A stretch of DNA of 64,000 nt, taken from NCBI RefSeq assembly GCF_018614095.1, contig NZ_JAGGOY010000017.1:62001-126000 (forward strand), given 5' to 3'. Positions 31,555 to 48,180 of this stretch are shown piece after piece; position 1 is the stretch's first letter; each line of letters begins with the position of its first letter. The translations under genes were made by a program, and so were the position numbers. Under the pieces are notes generated by a model, which ran no database searches, was not told the origin of the DNA, and worked only from the letters and a program-made list of their open reading frames with translations. This DNA is from Streptomyces sp. ISL-87 (lineage in GTDB: Bacteria > Actinomycetota > Actinomycetes > Streptomycetales > Streptomycetaceae).

Positions 31555-31628
31555 GCGCCGCTAGCTCAGTTGGTTAGAGCAGCTGACTCTTAATCAGCGG
31601 GTCCGGGGTTCGAGTCCCTGGCGGCGCA
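31555..31628 (+). tRNA. tRNA-Lys (CTT), copy 1
   Basis: A complete cloverleaf with acceptor GCGCCGC (31555-31561) / GCGGCGC (31621-31627), anticodon loop CTCTTAA giving anticodon CTT, and T-loop GGTTCGAGTCC. The gene is identical to those at 39482 and 47267. Confidence 0.96.
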
Positions 31629-31637
31629 CAGACGGTC

Positions 31638-39476: not shown

Positions 39477-39481
39477 ACAGG

Positions 39482-39555
39482 TGCGCCGCCAGGGACTCGA
39501 ACCCCGGACCCGCTGATTAAGAGTCAGCTGCTCTAACCAACTGAGCTAGCGGCGC
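39482..39555 (-). tRNA. tRNA-Lys (CTT), copy 2
   Basis: The reverse complement is identical over all 74 bases to the tRNA-Lys genes at 31555 and 47267, but in opposite orientation. Confidence 0.96.
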
Positions 39556-41346: not shown

Positions 41347-41396
41347 CGTCAGAACTGAACGTCAGTCGTCAGTCGTCAGTCGTCAGAACTGAACGT
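41347..41396. repeat. Short tandem repeat at the LPMO 3' end
   Basis: AGAACTGAACGTC occurs at 41350 and again within the LPMO stop region (41385), separated by three AGTCGTC heptamers. It duplicates the last codons of the LPMO gene, probably by slippage. Confidence 0.6.
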
Positions 41397-42024
41397 CGGA
41401 GCAGGCGTAGAACGCCATGGGGGTGTCGTTGACGGTCCAGACGGCCAGGATCATGTGCCGGCCGGTCTTGCCGCTCGGCATGGCGCCCTGGTGGACGGTG
41501 GTCATGGCGGGGCGGGCGCCGTTGTAGGCGACCGTGAGGAAGGGCTGGGGGTCGAGGGCGGCGCGGGTGAGGGGCTTGGTGGGGTCCCAGCCGTTCTTGG
41601 TGACGTAGTACTTGAAGTCGGTGGTGGAGTGGTTGGCGGTGAACTGCCAGCGGAAGCCGTAGCTCTGGCCGCTGGTCACCTTGGTGGTGGGCCAGGCGCC
41701 CCCGCGCGGGTCGTCGAGCTGGGCGAACTCACTGTGGCCGCCGGCGCAGATCGTGCCGTCGGCGGGGCCGGCGGCCGGGAAGCCCTTGTAGCCCTCGACG
41801 CTCTGCGGCTCCCACTGGATGGGGCCGCAGTCGGAGACGGTCTTGTTGGCGCAGAGCTTCTGGCGGCTGATGGGGGTGTCGGTGTAGCCGTGGCTGCTGG
41901 CGGTGGGAGCGCCGAGCAGGCTGACGGCGGCGACGATGCCGACGCCGAGCGCGGCGACGCCGGCCCGCCTGAGGCCGGGCGCTCTGGGATCGCTGGGGAT
42001 TGCGGACATGCGGACGGTACGCAT
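41383..42024 (-). CDS. AA10 lytic polysaccharide monooxygenase / chitin-binding protein (Chb-type)
   Basis: A 213-residue secreted copper enzyme. After the signal peptide (...LLGAPTASS) the mature protein begins HGYTDTP, the N-terminal His of the copper brace; the second His is in FTANHSTTDFKYY. The core matches Streptomyces AA10 chitin LPMOs (CHB/Chb), which cut crystalline chitin oxidatively. Two DasR-like palindromes lie directly upstream. Corresponds by position to S. coelicolor chb (from memory). Confidence 0.94.
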   Translation of the reverse strand: MRTVRMSAIPSDPRAPGLRRAGVAALGVGIVAAVSLLGAPTASSHGYTDTPISRQKLCANKTVSDCGPIQWEPQSVEGYKGFPAAGPADGTICAGGHSEFAQLDDPRGGAWPTTKVTSGQSYGFRWQFTANHSTTDFKYYVTKNGWDPTKPLTRAALDPQPFLTVAYNGARPAMTTVHQGAMPSGKTGRHMILAVWTVNDTPMAFYACSDVQF

Positions 42025-42222: not shown

Positions 42223-45200
42223 TTACTCGGAGCGGCCGGTGTAGAAGGCGACGGTGAGGTCCTTCACGAGGGCCTTGCGTTCGTAGTCGTCCAGCTCGAC
42301 GAGCCCGCGCGAGGTCAGCCGGTGGACGGTGTCGTCCACGGCGTCCACGACCGAGGTCAGCACGGTGTCCCGGTGCTTGGCGTCGATCGCCGCGACCCGG
42401 CGGCGGCGCATGGCCTCGGCGACCTCGGGGGCGTACTCGATCCGGGTCGGCTGGGCGGAGAACACCTCGACCCCGACCGCCTCGGTCTCGGCCGCCAGCA
42501 TCCGGGTCAGCGCGTCGCCGACGGCCTCGGCGTCGCGCAGGGTCGGGGCGTCCTCGTGGAAGGCGTCGGCGGGGAGCTGGGACAGGACCCGGGCCATGGC
42601 CGATTCCACCTGTTCGGCGAGGTACTCGGTGTGGTCCGCGACGGCGAGGGTGGCCCGGGCGGTGTCCTTGACCTGCCAGACGACTTGGACGACGACCTGG
42701 AGGGCGAGGCCGCCGGAGTCCACGGCGGGCATGGGGTCGCTGCGCCAGTGGCGCAGGCGCACGTCGACGCGGCGGCGCAGCAGGAGGGGGCTGACCCAGG
42801 TGAGTCCGGTACGCCGGACCGTGCCGCGGTAGCGGCCGAAAAGGGTGAGTACCCAGGCGTGGCCGGCCTTGGCGCGGCCGAGGCCGCCGAGGGCGAGGAG
42901 GGCCACGACGCCGAGGAAGGCGAGCGGGGGCCAGTGGGTGGCGCGGAGCCCGTGGTAGGCCCGGGGGGCCGCCCCGAAGGCGGCCACCATCGGGGCGGGG
43001 ATGGCGCCGGCCCGCCAGAGCACTGCCGTGCAGCCGGCGAAGGCGAGCCCGCCGACGAGCACGGCGGCCCACCCGGGCAACACGGGCCCACGATGCTCCC
43101 GCAACCGGTCGTCCCCCCGAGGGACCCGCCGACCGGCGGGCGGCCGGGGGGCGTAGGCCTGGGGGGCGTGGCCCGGGGCGGGGGCAGGGCTGGGGTTTGA
43201 GACACGGGCCGGATCTGAGACACGGGTCGGATCGACGGCGCGGCCCGGGTCGGAGCCACAGCTCGGGTCGGAGCCACAGCTCGGGTCGGAGGCGCGGCCC
43301 GGGCCGGAGTCACGGCTCGGGTAGAAGGCGCCGCCCGGGTAAAGGGCATGGGAGCCCAGGTCGGAGGCGTGGCTCGGGTCGGAGGGGTGGCCTGGCGCCG
43401 GGGTCGGGCGCAGGGCGGAGGTCGGGTGCGGGGCCGGGGAGGCCTCGGCCGTGCCGGTGGCCATGGGCTTCGAGTGCGCACGGAACGGGAGGTGAACGGG
43501 CACCTCCGTGACCGCGGCCCCACGGACCGGCCCGATGCGGGGGATGTCCTGCGGGTCCTCGTCACCCTCCCCCTCCGCCATGCCGCGGGCCACGGCCCGG
43601 GCGACGAGACCCGCTACGCCGAACCGGGCGGGGCGCCCTGCGGCCGAATCCCCGTCCGGCTCCATGCCGCGCGCCACAGCCTGGCTGCCCAGACCCGCCA
43701 GACCAACCTCGGTAAGAGGCCCCGCGGCCCAATCACCGTCCGGCTCCGCGCCACGGGCCACACCCTGGGCGCCCAGACCCGCCACACCGAACCCGGCAGG
43801 GGGCCCTGCAGCCCAATCCCCTTCCGGCTCCAAGTCGCGGGCCACGGCCTGGGTGCCCAGGCTGGCCACACCAGGGCCGGGAACACCAAGCCCGGCAGGG
43901 GGGACAGCGGCCCCGCCGCCGTCGCCCTGCCCCATGTCACGGGGCACAGCCTGGGTGCCGCCCAGGCCCGCAACGTCGGGCCCGGCAGGGGGCCCTGCGG
44001 CCCAATCCCCGTCCGGCCCCATGCCACGGGCCGCACCCTGGGTGCCCAGACCCGCCACACCGAGCCTGGCGGAGGGCCCGGCCCCGCCGTCGTCCCCCTC
44101 CCCCGTGCCACGGGCCGCAGCCTGGGCGACCAGGCCGGCGGGGGGCTCGGCGGTGCCCTCGCCCGGGCCGGTTTCGAGGGTGCGCAGGCGCTGGGTGGCC
44201 GGCGCGTCCTGTGGGTGCGGGATGTCCACCGCCGGGGGCGGTACGGGTCCGGACGGTTCGGGGTCGCCGCCGTGCGGGCGGCCCGCGCCGGACTCGGCCC
44301 GGTCGCCGGCCGGGGCGTGCACCGGCTCCGGTTCGGGCTGAACCCGGGCCGCCGGTACGTCGCTTCGGGCGGGGCGGACATCCGGCCCGTCGGCGTCGTG
44401 GCCGGCCGGGCCCCCGTAGGCCGGCTCGGCGGCCCAGTCCGGGGTGGCATACCGCCCGTACGGCGCGGCCGCGCCCACGGTGGCCACGGCGTCGGCCTCC
44501 TGGGCGGGCCGGGTATGCGGCACGACCGGTGCCTCCGCCGACGCGGGATGCCCGTGCGGCGCGGCCACCTCGGCTTGGGCCTCATACGACGCGGGATGCC
44601 CGTGCGGCGCGGCCACCTCGGCTTGGGCCTCATACGGCGCGGGATGCCCGTGCGGCGCGGCCACCTCGGCTTGGGCCTCATACGACGCGGGATGCCCGTA
44701 CGGCGCGGCCGCTGCTTGGGCCTCCGCCGACGCGGGGCGCCCGTACGGCGCGACCCGCTCGGCCGGGGCCACGGCCCGTGCGGGCACCGCCGCCGGGGCG
44801 GTGGCCGCCGGGGCCTCCACGGCAGTCGGCCGGGGCGCGACCTCGGTCCACCGACCGGGCCGGGGGGCCGGCCGCCCAGACGGCGCAGCCGCAGCCGGAC
44901 GTTCGCCCGGGTGCTCGGCCGAGGCGCCCGCCGCCCCCGCCGCGACGGAGTCCGACCCGGCCGCCGACGCCTGGCCGGCAGCCCACACCGGGGAAGCAGC
45001 CACCGGGGCCAGGGACTCGGCCCGGGATCCCACCGCCCCCGCCCGGGCGGACTCCGGCGCGGCCATCGACGCCTGGCCGGCAGCCCGCGCCGGGGAAGCA
45101 GCCGCCGGAGCCAGGGACTCGGCCCGGGATCCCACCGCCCCCGCCGGGACGGACTCCGGCGCGGCCATCGACGCCTGGCCGGCAGCCCGCGCCGGGGAAG

Positions 45201-45708
45201 CAGCCGCCGGGATCTGGGCCTCGGCCAGGGCGCCCGCCGCCCCCGCCGGGACGGATTCCGGCCCGGCAGCCGATGCCTGGTCGGCAGCCCACACGCGGGA
45301 AGCAGCCGTCGGGGCCAGGGACTCGGCTCGGGATCCCACCGCCCCCGCCCGGGCGGGCTCCGGCCCGGCCGCCGATGCCCGGGCGGCAGCCCGCGCCGGG
45401 GAAGCAGCCGCCGGGGTCAGGGACTCGGTCCGCGTTTCCGCCGACCGCGTCGGGGCGTGTTCCGGCCCGCCCGCCTGGAGCTGGGCGGTGTGGGAGGAGG
45501 CGGGCCCGGGGGTTGGGGTGTCGGCCCGGGGCCCCGGCCACGCAGTCGCGCAGGTCGGGGAGGTGGCCGACGGGGTCGCAGAGGCGGCCCGCCGGGTCAC
45601 GGGCTCGGTGCTGGATGGGGAAGCGGCCGCCGGGGTGGGGGTCGGCGGGATGTGGAAGGTGCCCGTGCTGGATGTGGTGCGGGTGGGGTACATCGTTGCC
45701 TCCGTCAT
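42223..45708 (-). CDS. Giant SPFH/band-7 membrane protein with repetitive disordered N-terminus
   Basis: A 1161-residue protein. Only the last ~300 residues look folded: two membrane helices (~875-950: GWAAVLVGGLAFAGCTAVLW and PPLAFLGVVALLALGGL), then a band-7 domain (GLTWVSPLLLRRRVDVR, VQVVWQVKDTARATLAV, EVFSAQPTRIEYAPEVAEAM). Residues 1-860 are Ala/Pro/Gly-rich repeats of at least four kinds. ATG 45708 overlaps the preceding stop by 4 bp, coupling it to the wall hydrolase. SPFH proteins scaffold membrane microdomains. The bulk of the N-terminus is one uninterrupted frame, so I treat it as real. Confidence 0.8.
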   Translation of the reverse strand: MTEATMYPTRTTSSTGTFHIPPTPTPAAASPSSTEPVTRRAASATPSATSPTCATAWPGPRADTPTPGPASSHTAQLQAGGPEHAPTRSAETRTESLTPAAASPARAAARASAAGPEPARAGAVGSRAESLAPTAASRVWAADQASAAGPESVPAGAAGALAEAQIPAAASPARAAGQASMAAPESVPAGAVGSRAESLAPAAASPARAAGQASMAAPESARAGAVGSRAESLAPVAASPVWAAGQASAAGSDSVAAGAAGASAEHPGERPAAAAPSGRPAPRPGRWTEVAPRPTAVEAPAATAPAAVPARAVAPAERVAPYGRPASAEAQAAAAPYGHPASYEAQAEVAAPHGHPAPYEAQAEVAAPHGHPASYEAQAEVAAPHGHPASAEAPVVPHTRPAQEADAVATVGAAAPYGRYATPDWAAEPAYGGPAGHDADGPDVRPARSDVPAARVQPEPEPVHAPAGDRAESGAGRPHGGDPEPSGPVPPPAVDIPHPQDAPATQRLRTLETGPGEGTAEPPAGLVAQAAARGTGEGDDGGAGPSARLGVAGLGTQGAARGMGPDGDWAAGPPAGPDVAGLGGTQAVPRDMGQGDGGGAAVPPAGLGVPGPGVASLGTQAVARDLEPEGDWAAGPPAGFGVAGLGAQGVARGAEPDGDWAAGPLTEVGLAGLGSQAVARGMEPDGDSAAGRPARFGVAGLVARAVARGMAEGEGDEDPQDIPRIGPVRGAAVTEVPVHLPFRAHSKPMATGTAEASPAPHPTSALRPTPAPGHPSDPSHASDLGSHALYPGGAFYPSRDSGPGRASDPSCGSDPSCGSDPGRAVDPTRVSDPARVSNPSPAPAPGHAPQAYAPRPPAGRRVPRGDDRLREHRGPVLPGWAAVLVGGLAFAGCTAVLWRAGAIPAPMVAAFGAAPRAYHGLRATHWPPLAFLGVVALLALGGLGRAKAGHAWVLTLFGRYRGTVRRTGLTWVSPLLLRRRVDVRLRHWRSDPMPAVDSGGLALQVVVQVVWQVKDTARATLAVADHTEYLAEQVESAMARVLSQLPADAFHEDAPTLRDAEAVGDALTRMLAAETEAVGVEVFSAQPTRIEYAPEVAEAMRRRRVAAIDAKHRDTVLTSVVDAVDDTVHRLTSRGLVELDDYERKALVKDLTVAFYTGRSE
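43190..43390 (-). repeat. 18-bp coding repeats (SDPGR/SDPSCG-like) in the SPFH N-terminus
   Basis: Units resembling CTCGGGTCGGAGCCACAG recur with drift, encoding six-residue SDPxxx motifs just before the membrane region. Confidence 0.7.
43600..44130 (-). repeat. 84-bp coding repeats (about 28 residues) in the SPFH N-terminus
   Basis: About six degenerate units, each containing GLGTQAVAR...PDGDWAAGPPAG-like sequence. The frame is preserved across all of them. Confidence 0.75.
44543..44710 (-). repeat. 48-bp near-identical tandem repeat in the SPFH N-terminus
   Basis: Units start at 44543, 44591, 44639 and 44687 (GCGGGATGCCCGT...), encoding a 16-residue HPASYEAQAEVAAPHG motif. The first three are almost identical in DNA, which suggests recent expansion. 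Confidence 0.9.
44900..45430 (-). repeat. 102-bp coding repeats (34 residues) in the SPFH N-terminus
   Basis: The landmark GGGGAAGCAGCC recurs at 44990, 45092, 45194, about 45296 and 45398, exactly 102 bp apart. It encodes about five AASPARAAGQAS...SRAESLAP units. Confidence 0.9.
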
Positions 45709-47084
45709 GCGAACAGCCGGCGCCAGGTTTCCGGGTCCGGGTAGCCGTCGGCCTGGGCGCCGCGCCAGCCCTGGGCACGCTGGAAGGCCTCGACGTTGCG
45801 GCGGTCGGCCTCGCTCCAGCGACGGCCCGGCCGGGATGTGTAGTGCTTGCCGAAGCCTCTCGACACCAAGCGGCGACCGAGGGCCTCGATGGCGGCATGG
45901 GACGAGCCCGGGCGGAATACCGACGCGCCCGGGTAGTCCCGTACCCCGCCCGGACCCGGCGCGCCCGCCTCCGTCGGCCGGATGTCGTCGCCCTGGTTCT
46001 CCACCAGCAGCCGCCAGGTTTGCGCGCCGGGGAGCCCGTCCGCGTCCGCCCCCGTCCAGCCCTGCGCCTGCTGGAAGGCCTGGGTGGCCAGCCGGTCGGC
46101 GTCGGTCCACTTCGAGGCCGCGCCCTTGGGGTAGAAGCGGCGGCCGCCGCGGTCGATCAGCATCTTGCCGAGCTGCTTCACGTACTCGTTGTCCGCGCCC
46201 GGGCCGAACTTCCCGGCGCCGGGGAACACCGTCGAGGTCCCCGGCTTCGCACCCCCGGCCGGATCCTCCGGAACGATGCCGCCCGTCACCCCGTTGAAGC
46301 GGTACGGGACGTATTTCGTCGCGTTGCTCCAGTACCCGTACGGCGTCGCCAGCTTCCGCGTGTTCGGCTGCGTCTGCTCGTAGGCGATGTAGTGCGTGCG
46401 CGTCTCGTCCACCCAGCCGCCGAAGATGACGACGTGGGAGCCCTTGTTGGGGTCTGCCGGGTTGTGGAAGAGCAGCATGTCCCCCGGCAGCAGCTCCTCT
46501 TTCGTGATCTTGGTGGCGAACTTGTCGAGGCTGCCGGTCCACTCGTTCGTTCCGAGGTTCCAGACCATCGAGACGTAGCCCGAGCAGTCCTGGCGGTACC
46601 CGTCCGACCAGTACTCGGACATGCTGTACGGGACTTCCGCCTCCAGCCACAGCTTCGCCCGGTTGATGATCGTCGTCCGGTCGAGCCGCTTCAGGGCGCC
46701 CGGCGCGGCCGGCGCCCCGGGCGCGCCGACGGGCTTGGCCTTCGGCCCGTGCAGCGGGGCCCGGTCGCCCTGCGGGGAGCCCGGGTCGTCCAGCTTCACC
46801 GGCCCGGGGACGGGGGGCCGGGGGGTCGCCGCGAGCACCGCGCTGCTGCCGCCGCCCAGGACCACGCCCGCCGCGGTGGCCAGCACCAGTGCGCGGCGGG
46901 CCCCGCGTGCGGCGGGGTGGCCGCCGTCGCGCAGCGGTATGGCCCGCGCGCGGGCGAGGGCGCGTCGCCGCTGCACGCACCCGAGGCACACGCAGTCGCC
47001 GGCGGGCTCGTACTCCTGGAAGACCGGCATAGGCATGGGCATCCGCGTCGGCATCTGCACATGCATCGGAGGCTGCGTCGTCAT
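45705..47084 (-). CDS. NlpC/P60-type cell-wall hydrolase with two peptidoglycan-binding-like repeats
   Basis: A 459-residue protein. The N-terminal cytoplasmic part has a Cys pair (DCVCLGCVQRR), then an Ala/Leu membrane segment (~70-90). A catalytic domain follows with the Cys nucleophile in YRQDCSGYVSMVW, GDMLLFHNP and the His in SHVVIFGGW. Two C-terminal repeats (DADRLATQAFQQAQGW and EADRRNVEAFQRAQGW, each followed by a GLPG/GYPDPETW block) look like wall-binding modules. It overlaps the giant SPFH gene by 4 bp, so the two probably act together at the envelope. Confidence 0.88.
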   Translation of the reverse strand: MTTQPPMHVQMPTRMPMPMPVFQEYEPAGDCVCLGCVQRRRALARARAIPLRDGGHPAARGARRALVLATAAGVVLGGGSSAVLAATPRPPVPGPVKLDDPGSPQGDRAPLHGPKAKPVGAPGAPAAPGALKRLDRTTIINRAKLWLEAEVPYSMSEYWSDGYRQDCSGYVSMVWNLGTNEWTGSLDKFATKITKEELLPGDMLLFHNPADPNKGSHVVIFGGWVDETRTHYIAYEQTQPNTRKLATPYGYWSNATKYVPYRFNGVTGGIVPEDPAGGAKPGTSTVFPGAGKFGPGADNEYVKQLGKMLIDRGGRRFYPKGAASKWTDADRLATQAFQQAQGWTGADADGLPGAQTWRLLVENQGDDIRPTEAGAPGPGGVRDYPGASVFRPGSSHAAIEALGRRLVSRGFGKHYTSRPGRRWSEADRRNVEAFQRAQGWRGAQADGYPDPETWRRLFA

Positions 47085-47266: not shown

Positions 47267-47340
47267 GCGCCGCTAGCTCAGTTGGTTAGAGCAGCTGACT
47301 CTTAATCAGCGGGTCCGGGGTTCGAGTCCCTGGCGGCGCA
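47267..47340 (+). tRNA. tRNA-Lys (CTT), copy 3
   Basis: The acceptor arms are 47267-47273 / 47333-47339, the anticodon is CTT and the discriminator is A47340. The gene is identical to copies 1 and 2. Confidence 0.96.
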
Positions 47341-47346
47341 CAGACG

Positions 47347-47511: not shown

Positions 47512-48180
47512 TCACGCCGCCGTGCCGGACCGGACTCCCTCCCCGGTCAGGTACGCCGAGACGACCACGTTCGCCGTGTACTGCTTCGCCTTCTTGTCGT
47601 ACGCGCCCCCGCAGGTCACCAGCCGCAGTTCGGCCCGGCCCCTGACCCGCGGCCCGTACGCCTTGTGCGCGTCGAAGCCGGCGCGCTCGTAGACCCGTAC
47701 GTCCTCGATGGTGAACTCGGCGATCGTGCCGTCCGCCCGCACCACCCGCACTTTGTCGCCCTGCTGCGCCGAGCTCAGGCCGTAGAACACCGCGGGCTTG
47801 GACGCGGTGTCCACGTGGCCGACCAGCAGTGCGGTCCCGGCCTCGCCGGGCTGGGCGCCGCCGCCCCACCAGCCCACCGTGCCCGGGCGGTCGTAGGGCG
47901 GCGGCTCGATCGCGCCGTCGGCGTCCAGGCCCCGGGGGATCACCGGGGCCTGGACGCCTATGGACGGTACGTCGACCCGCGCGGGCGGGGCCCCGGACAG
48001 CGGGGCGTGCGCGACGGGCAGGCCGAGGCCCACCGCCGCACCGCCCTGTCCGGGGACCGGGGCCGGGACCCCGGTGATCTCCCGGCCCCACAGCCACAGG
48101 CCGAGGACCAGCACCGACCAGGCGGCGAAGGTCAGCAGCCTCGCACCGGCGCTGGACCGCGGCTCATCCGGGGCCGTCAC
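47512..48180 (-). CDS. Class F sortase
   Basis: A 222-residue membrane transpeptidase. N-terminal anchor helix at ~15-33 (FAAWSVLVLGLWLWG), then the sortase barrel with the catalytic His in ALLVGHVDTAS and the catalytic Cys in LRLVTCGGAY; the downstream Arg region is less clear. Class F sortases are actinobacterial housekeeping-type enzymes. It follows the surface protein gene at 48191 by 10 bp, which points to that protein as a partner or substrate. Confidence 0.9.
   Translation of the reverse strand: MTAPDEPRSSAGARLLTFAAWSVLVLGLWLWGREITGVPAPVPGQGGAAVGLGLPVAHAPLSGAPPARVDVPSIGVQAPVIPRGLDADGAIEPPPYDRPGTVGWWGGGAQPGEAGTALLVGHVDTASKPAVFYGLSSAQQGDKVRVVRADGTIAEFTIEDVRVYERAGFDAHKAYGPRVRGRAELRLVTCGGAYDKKAKQYTANVVVSAYLTGEGVRSGTAA

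Follow-up and report, generated by a model that had tools for sequence, protein, structure and literature searches.

Why should a membrane scaffold of the SPFH family carry a very long, repeat-built N-terminal tail, and does anything in that tail matter besides its length? The question is raised by a minus-strand open reading frame (ORF) at positions 42223–45708, 1161 aa plus stop, in a stretch of 64,000 nucleotides from Streptomyces sp. ISL-87 (contig NZ_JAGGOY010000017.1, positions 62,001 to 126,000), hereafter the window. ORF translation and Tandem Repeats Finder (TRF) confirmed what a first-pass annotation of these letters had described, namely a 1161-residue frame with four in-frame repeat families. 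Comparison with relatives shows that this hypervariable tail carries one conserved short peptide, which suggests a docking site whose leash differs in length between species. Our reading, which we put at about an even chance, is that an SPFH hairpin scaffold displays this peptide for docking, with the disordered tail as an evolvable tether, and so helps to place wall-remodelling enzymes.

Conservation analysis of the tails revealed a short peptide, overlooked in the first-pass annotation, with the consensus ExTxxIPVHLLFR[DE], which has the form TEVPVHLPFRA in the window. The loose pattern [IV]P[VLMA][HDNG][LFMDP][LP][FY] is found exactly once in 59 of the 60 resolved tails of a set of 80 relative loci, compared to 0.05 expected from shuffles, and the strict form in 50 of them; the lone exception to the loose pattern, L179, reads IPVHLLSR. 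Flanking residues beyond the search pattern are kept as well, with I at −8 in 42 of 44 loci (L145 on), E at −5 in 39 and T at −3 in 41. In a genome set of 51 rows, ten of which were excluded (second copies, divergent or truncated sequences, or interruption by Ns), the peptide is present in 40 of 41 tails, including that of the window. A DNA pattern for PVHLLFR[DE] gave matches in 34 of 100 genomes and its reversed control in one, and 32 of the 34 matches adjoin an SPFH core by coordinates. Two off-frame matches (G031 and G092) were considered as occurrences in other proteins and judged to be due to chance. The own-genome form of the peptide occurs once in the genome, within this gene, and the exact string IPVHLLFR was not found in the literature searched.

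The tail that bears this peptide is itself hypervariable. Among 61 resolved orthologs, i.e., the window and 60 of the 80 relative loci (the other 20 are without a resolvable start), its length runs from 64 to 864 aa with a median of 449. Because this is a 13-fold range, with differences of up to 317 aa between cores that are at least 95% identical, the length-dependent tethering proposed in the first-pass annotation is weakened. No tail in the clade of the window is shorter than 328 aa among the 21 that are resolved, the window's own counted. When 51 cores were placed in an unrooted tree, the nine tails longer than 400 aa all belonged to a single fork with 23 rows, whose support is 93/91 (not starred). 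Half of the window's tail (0.50) is covered by four main arrays (Table 1), all with periods that are multiples of three, plus smaller ones. Array periods differ between the relatives compared, and this comparison supports the claim that the repeats are lineage-specific. The near identity ascribed to the 48-bp copies holds for the inner ones (89–90% matches over the array), whereas the outer copies have diverged.

We take the tail to be translated because its frame is free of stops, the start and its GGAGG spacing are conserved, and array periods are divisible by three. From 60 nt past the stop of the upstream hydrolase gene to the core, the SPFH frame contains 0 stops over 53 of the 80 loci (75,597 nt), compared to 39–163 in the other five frames and a shuffling expectation of 210, so that the open frame is not a GC artefact; the remaining 27 loci were left out since the hydrolase is absent from the locus, the gap is short or Ns intervene. 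Counting the window, 53 tails hold 158 non-overlapping tandem arrays, and the period is divisible by three in 143 of them. Substitutions within repeats, considered as a proof of translation, were rejected for this purpose, the SPFH frame being neutral and other frames as low or lower.

At the 5′ end, the first ATG of the SPFH frame overlaps the hydrolase stop as ATGA. The overlap on which coupling to the hydrolase had been based is thus present, but translation probably does not begin at the ATGA codon, because all 20 clade loci with a hydrolase and no run of Ns show GGAGG plus an ATG 11 nt past the hydrolase stop (eight other clade loci were not judgeable and were left out). The second ATG, at 45693 and with GGAGG ahead of it, is the likelier start, and M[YFH]PT[RH]TT opens the protein in 20 of 20 resolved clade relatives. 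A start near 43150, raised in the first-pass annotation, is contradicted by the absence of stops and by the conservation of this distal start. We accordingly give next to no credence to an unexpressed tail, in which translation would begin close to the membrane segments and high GC would be the sole reason for the open frame upstream. Other frames are indeed often open in GC-rich DNA, one antisense frame in 28 of the 53 loci, and A/T-ending codons make up 14% of the tail compared to 4% of the core; against this stand the missing stops, the conserved ribosome-binding site and start, the in-frame conservation of the peptide and the array periods.

Also retained by clade relatives is a helix-like block, GVAEIVAQAVARGMEEDD, which lies a short way ahead of the peptide. 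Six copies of it were identified in the window by ungapped BLOSUM scoring against 1000 shuffles; they score 38–56, whereas 95% of the shuffles peak at 27 or less and the maximum is 39; the two weakest copies (39 and 38) are not above this maximum. Exactly one copy was detected in 23 of 28 clade loci, in a count that misses copies scoring below 34. Of the five loci without a copy, L133 is one and the other four are truncated where their contig ends. The 84-bp family thus comprises six recognisable copies, more than TRF lists, and the 84-bp array alone looks constrained (pN/pS, the ratio of nonsynonymous to synonymous changes, of 0.58 from three copies; one antisense frame, 0.56). The last window copy, at the conserved place before the peptide, forms the only tail helix of at least four residues in the full-length model (698–710, low confidence). 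We read the 84-bp array as a probable amplification of a conserved element and not as arbitrary repeat growth.

Downstream of the tail, the SPFH membrane module proposed at first is supported by Pfam Band_7 (E 3.1e-25; 89.7 bits against a curated cut-off of 23.6) and by a stomatin-like predicted fold. In a 448-residue model built with 33 sequences, the mean predicted local distance difference test score (pLDDT) is 63, with values below 50 in the peptide region and of about 70–95 in the hairpin and SPFH domain except for residues 233–269. The top VIA-align matches of this model are stomatin SPFH domains with Z of 15–16 (8gn9: Z 16.2, root-mean-square deviation 1.9 over 106 residues); prohibitin, HflK/C, QmcA-YbbJ and flotillin also match. 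The fold assignment rests on this model because the full-length AlphaFold model is of low quality over the SPFH core too, and a PDB sequence search returned nothing at E 0.01. In the full-length model, 931 of 1161 residues, nearly all of residues 1–870 among them, have pLDDT below 50, in agreement with the long disordered tail of the first-pass annotation. By hydropathy, two hydrophobic segments are present in 74 of 78 orthologs and three in the other four. The outer flanks hold slightly more positive residues than the loop between the two segments, so the tail most likely lies on the cytoplasmic side, as does the SPFH domain and as had been presumed.

How could these parts work together? In the proposed docking mechanism, in-frame tandem duplication would change the length of a cytoplasmic tail, and the SPFH domains would oligomerise like those of other SPFH proteins, so that many tails would be displayed together; known SPFH cages contain 24 subunits of HflK/C or 22 flotillin pairs (available text of PMC11260169). 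The peptide would dock a cytosolic partner, with the remaining tail as a flexible spacer, and six block copies beside it may raise avidity. In this way the scaffold would gather the co-encoded peptidoglycan hydrolase and a lytic polysaccharide monooxygenase (LPMO) at wall-remodelling sites. A spacer that drifts around one conserved peptide is the pattern expected of a docking motif on a tether, as in FtsZ (excerpt of PMC9939409). A more specific version appears rather unlikely to us: the peptide, displayed by an SPFH oligomer on a species-specific leash, would recruit a factor of cell growth or division, perhaps as a mimic of the C-terminal peptide of FtsZ, and would so place hydrolase and LPMO. 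FtsZ of the same genome ends with ELDVPDFLK, compared to TEVPVHLPFR here, and the likeness is a visual one.

Several observations weigh against a docking peptide on a tether. The 102-, 48- and 18-bp arrays are without purifying selection in the SPFH frame (pN/pS 1.76, 1.17 and 1.77), and the 102-bp array gives lower ratios in other frames (0.52 and 0.53). The geometry of the peptide is not conserved, since its distance to the core runs from 23 to 827 aa and that to the start from 19 to 798 aa. Second-copy SPFH genes (L034 and L035) keep a variant peptide (IPMNDLFR and IPMDDLFR) with no hydrolase match in their 11-kb loci, which means that the partner may be something other than the adjacent hydrolase. 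Moreover, positive-residue counts favour an N-in topology weakly (3.6, 2.4 and 3.2), a hydrophobic stretch lies inside the tail in four loci (L134, L138, L168 and L170), and the monomer model shows no docking of the peptide onto the SPFH domain.

The lack of constraint leads to the serious rival, namely that the tail is near-neutral filler: slippage in GC-rich DNA would lengthen it, the need to translate the SPFH domain downstream would alone keep its frame and composition, and the peptide would have a minor or local role, e.g., in stability or targeting. We consider this possible, though on the unlikely side. In line with it, pooled pN/pS in the SPFH frame is 1.07 over 47 arrays, i.e., neutral overall (frame 2 is lower, 0.78), tails change by hundreds of residues between nearly identical cores, and one ortholog manages with a 64-aa tail. 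Against it stand the conservation of the distal start, the N-terminal segment and the peptide, and the minimum of 328 aa in the window clade.

Two further explanations assign the tail or its peptide a different role, and both seem improbable. The peptide could fold back onto an SPFH domain, either within the same subunit or in an adjacent one, and regulate oligomerisation. This would fit its occurrence in nearly all members and next to SPFH cores, and a tail binding its own core is reported for FtsZ (available part of PMC12747378); the absence of docking in the monomer model and the low pLDDT of the peptide speak against it. Slightly more doubtful still is the formation of membrane condensates driven by the tail, which the first-pass annotation had put forward and for which we found no specific support. 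The tail is long, of low complexity and predicted to be disordered, and it would be multivalent if the SPFH part oligomerises, with one block amplified sixfold. Yet its composition is 52% Ala/Pro/Gly with 2.9% aromatics, almost no lysine and near-neutral charge, and few aromatics, near-neutral charge and high Ala/Pro/Gly are not typical of sticker-rich phase-separating tails; in addition, short-tailed orthologs have the same gene context.

Table 1. Features of the SPFH gene and its neighbours in the window (residues are numbered in the 1161-aa frame).
Feature	Position	Strand	Basis or remark
LPMO, AA10 type (Pfam LPMO_10), LpmP/SCO2833-like by context	41383..42024	−	Pfam, context
SPFH protein gene	42223..45693	−	1156 aa from the likelier ATG; 1161 aa with the upstream ATG at 45708
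Band_7/SPFH domain	42379..42873	−	residues 946–1110, Pfam
Two hydrophobic segments, putative membrane hairpin	42886..43074	−	residues 879–897 and 923–941
Juxtamembrane block GRRVPRGDDRLREHRGP	43084..43134	−	residues 859–875
18-bp array	43237..43385	−	TRF, 8.1 copies; loose, 72% matches
Conserved peptide VPVHLPFR, clade form of IPVHLLFR	43480..43503	−	residues 736–743
Six helix-like block copies (clade form GVAEIVAQAVARGMEEDD), including the 84-bp array	43567..44145	−	block scoring
84-bp array	43578..43872	−	TRF, 3.5 copies; inside the helix-like block region
Clade island DIPHPQDAPATQRLR	44182..44226	−	found in part of the clade relatives
48-bp array	44539..44770	−	TRF, 4.9 copies; inner copies near identical
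102-bp array	44927..45475	−	TRF, 5.4 copies; copies without amino-acid constraint, pN/pS 1.76
Conserved N-terminal segment MYPTRTTSSTGTFHIPPT	45640..45693	−	clade comparison
GGAGG ribosome-binding site	45699..45703	−	directly past the ATGA overlap; same spacing in 20 clade loci
Upstream NlpC/P60-like peptidoglycan-binding protein, SCO2835-like by context	45705..47084	−	Pfam, context; CxCxxC before a hydrophobic segment

By gene context, the protein is a SCO2834-type SPFH protein of Streptomyces. In S. coelicolor, SCO2835, SCO2834 and SCO2833/LpmP are encoded in the same order near cslA-glxA-cslZ, and LpmP binds peptidoglycan and aids its hydrolysis (both from the available text of PMC9040799). 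The cell-wall hydrolase that was said to adjoin the gene is there, upstream and co-directional; it has peptidoglycan-binding domains, an NlpC/P60 match below the cut-off (21.3 compared to 23 bits) and a DCSG motif in 62 of 62 relatives examined. In 60 of these 62, its N-terminus also has a CxCxxC motif (GDCVCLGC) before a hydrophobic segment, which may bind a metal or serve for docking at the cytoplasmic face. A hydrolase match lies upstream in 42 of the 51 rows and an LPMO match downstream in 44, several of the rows being contig-edge loci or second copies.

The SPFH core is present in 46 of 61 same-genus genomes, the own genome included (E 1e-60). At the same threshold, CslA was not found in the host nor in ten others (G003, G013, G016, G020, G023, G030, G038, G039, G042 and G054), and in all 11 genomes without a CslA match hydrolase and LPMO stand beside the SPFH gene. 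This retention of the cassette fits a second role of LpmP and/or CslZ, unrelated to the apical glycan, that is suggested in the available text of PMC9040799. The reverse case also occurs, as six genomes (G017, G018, G035, G051, G058 and G060) have CslA (73–85% identity) and no SPFH core at E 1e-60. Neither cslA nor glxA was found within the 64-kb window, and the best GlxA-like match of the host has 42% identity over part of the query; the completeness estimate of the host genome is 100 (155 contigs) despite the missing CslA match. A relation between tail length and neighbouring cslA was rejected: median lengths are 270 with cslA (19 loci) and 342 without (21 loci; Mann-Whitney P 0.54), from 40 resolved loci outside the window clade and uncorrected for kinship.

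Three identical tRNA-Lys(CTT) genes are found in the window, at 39480–39555 (−), 47267–47341 (+) and 31555–31629 (+), with inverted orientation around the cassette; such pairs are also inverted in clade loci L118, L119, L121 and L125 and lie on the same strand in L146, L151, L165 and L176. Upstream of the cassette, a sortase-domain gene is encoded at 47512–48180 (−; Pfam), and a sortase match was seen in 22 of the 51 rows. In L188 (S. purpureus) the usual layout of the tail is reversed, with the peptide near the N-terminus and an 827-aa spacer to the core.

How does the protein compare with known systems? Like SCO2834, it is an SPFH membrane protein between a peptidoglycan-binding protein and an LPMO, a trio shared by most of the 51 rows. 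This likeness is drawn from gene context, and unlike in S. coelicolor, cslA and glxA are missing from the window and a CslA match from the host; the one passage on SCO2834 in PMC9040799 makes no mention of a tail. SCO2834 and SCO2835 each turned up in a single paper of the literature searched. With stomatin, prohibitin, HflK/C, QmcA and flotillin it shares Band_7, the predicted SPFH fold and two hydrophobic segments ahead of the domain, but it differs from them by its very long N-terminal tail ahead of the membrane segments. Besides Band_7, no Pfam family was found in the protein at E 0.001, and hence no match to the flotillin C-terminal domain, whose model is presumably present in the Pfam library; the five other window genes scanned with Pfam gave no NfeD-type match. 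On contig C123, the same genome has a 322-codon frame for an SPFH paralog (35% identity), with hydrophobic segments and an SPFH domain but a short N-terminus that lacks a long tail and the peptide. A parallel in the way of working is the FtsZ linker with its C-terminal peptide, a hypervariable disordered linker bearing a short conserved peptide for docking, and in E. coli only linkers of 43–95 aa are viable (both from an excerpt of PMC9939409). In contrast, the tail described here is N-terminal, 64–864 aa long and part of an unrelated protein, and its partner is putative.

The SPFH family and the location of this gene are already known. In the literature searched, we met no account of the tail's hypervariability, of its conserved peptide or of the amplification of the helix-like block. 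To our knowledge, how Streptomyces focus their wall-cutting enzymes is an open question. The peptide offers a defined, testable element, one conserved motif on a scaffold whose gene sits between those of a hydrolase and an LPMO already linked to wall remodelling. With tails of 64–864 aa, the orthologs form a natural series in which to ask if a disordered tether depends on its length, and they offer an example of in-frame repeats expanding between a conserved start, a conserved peptide and a membrane core.

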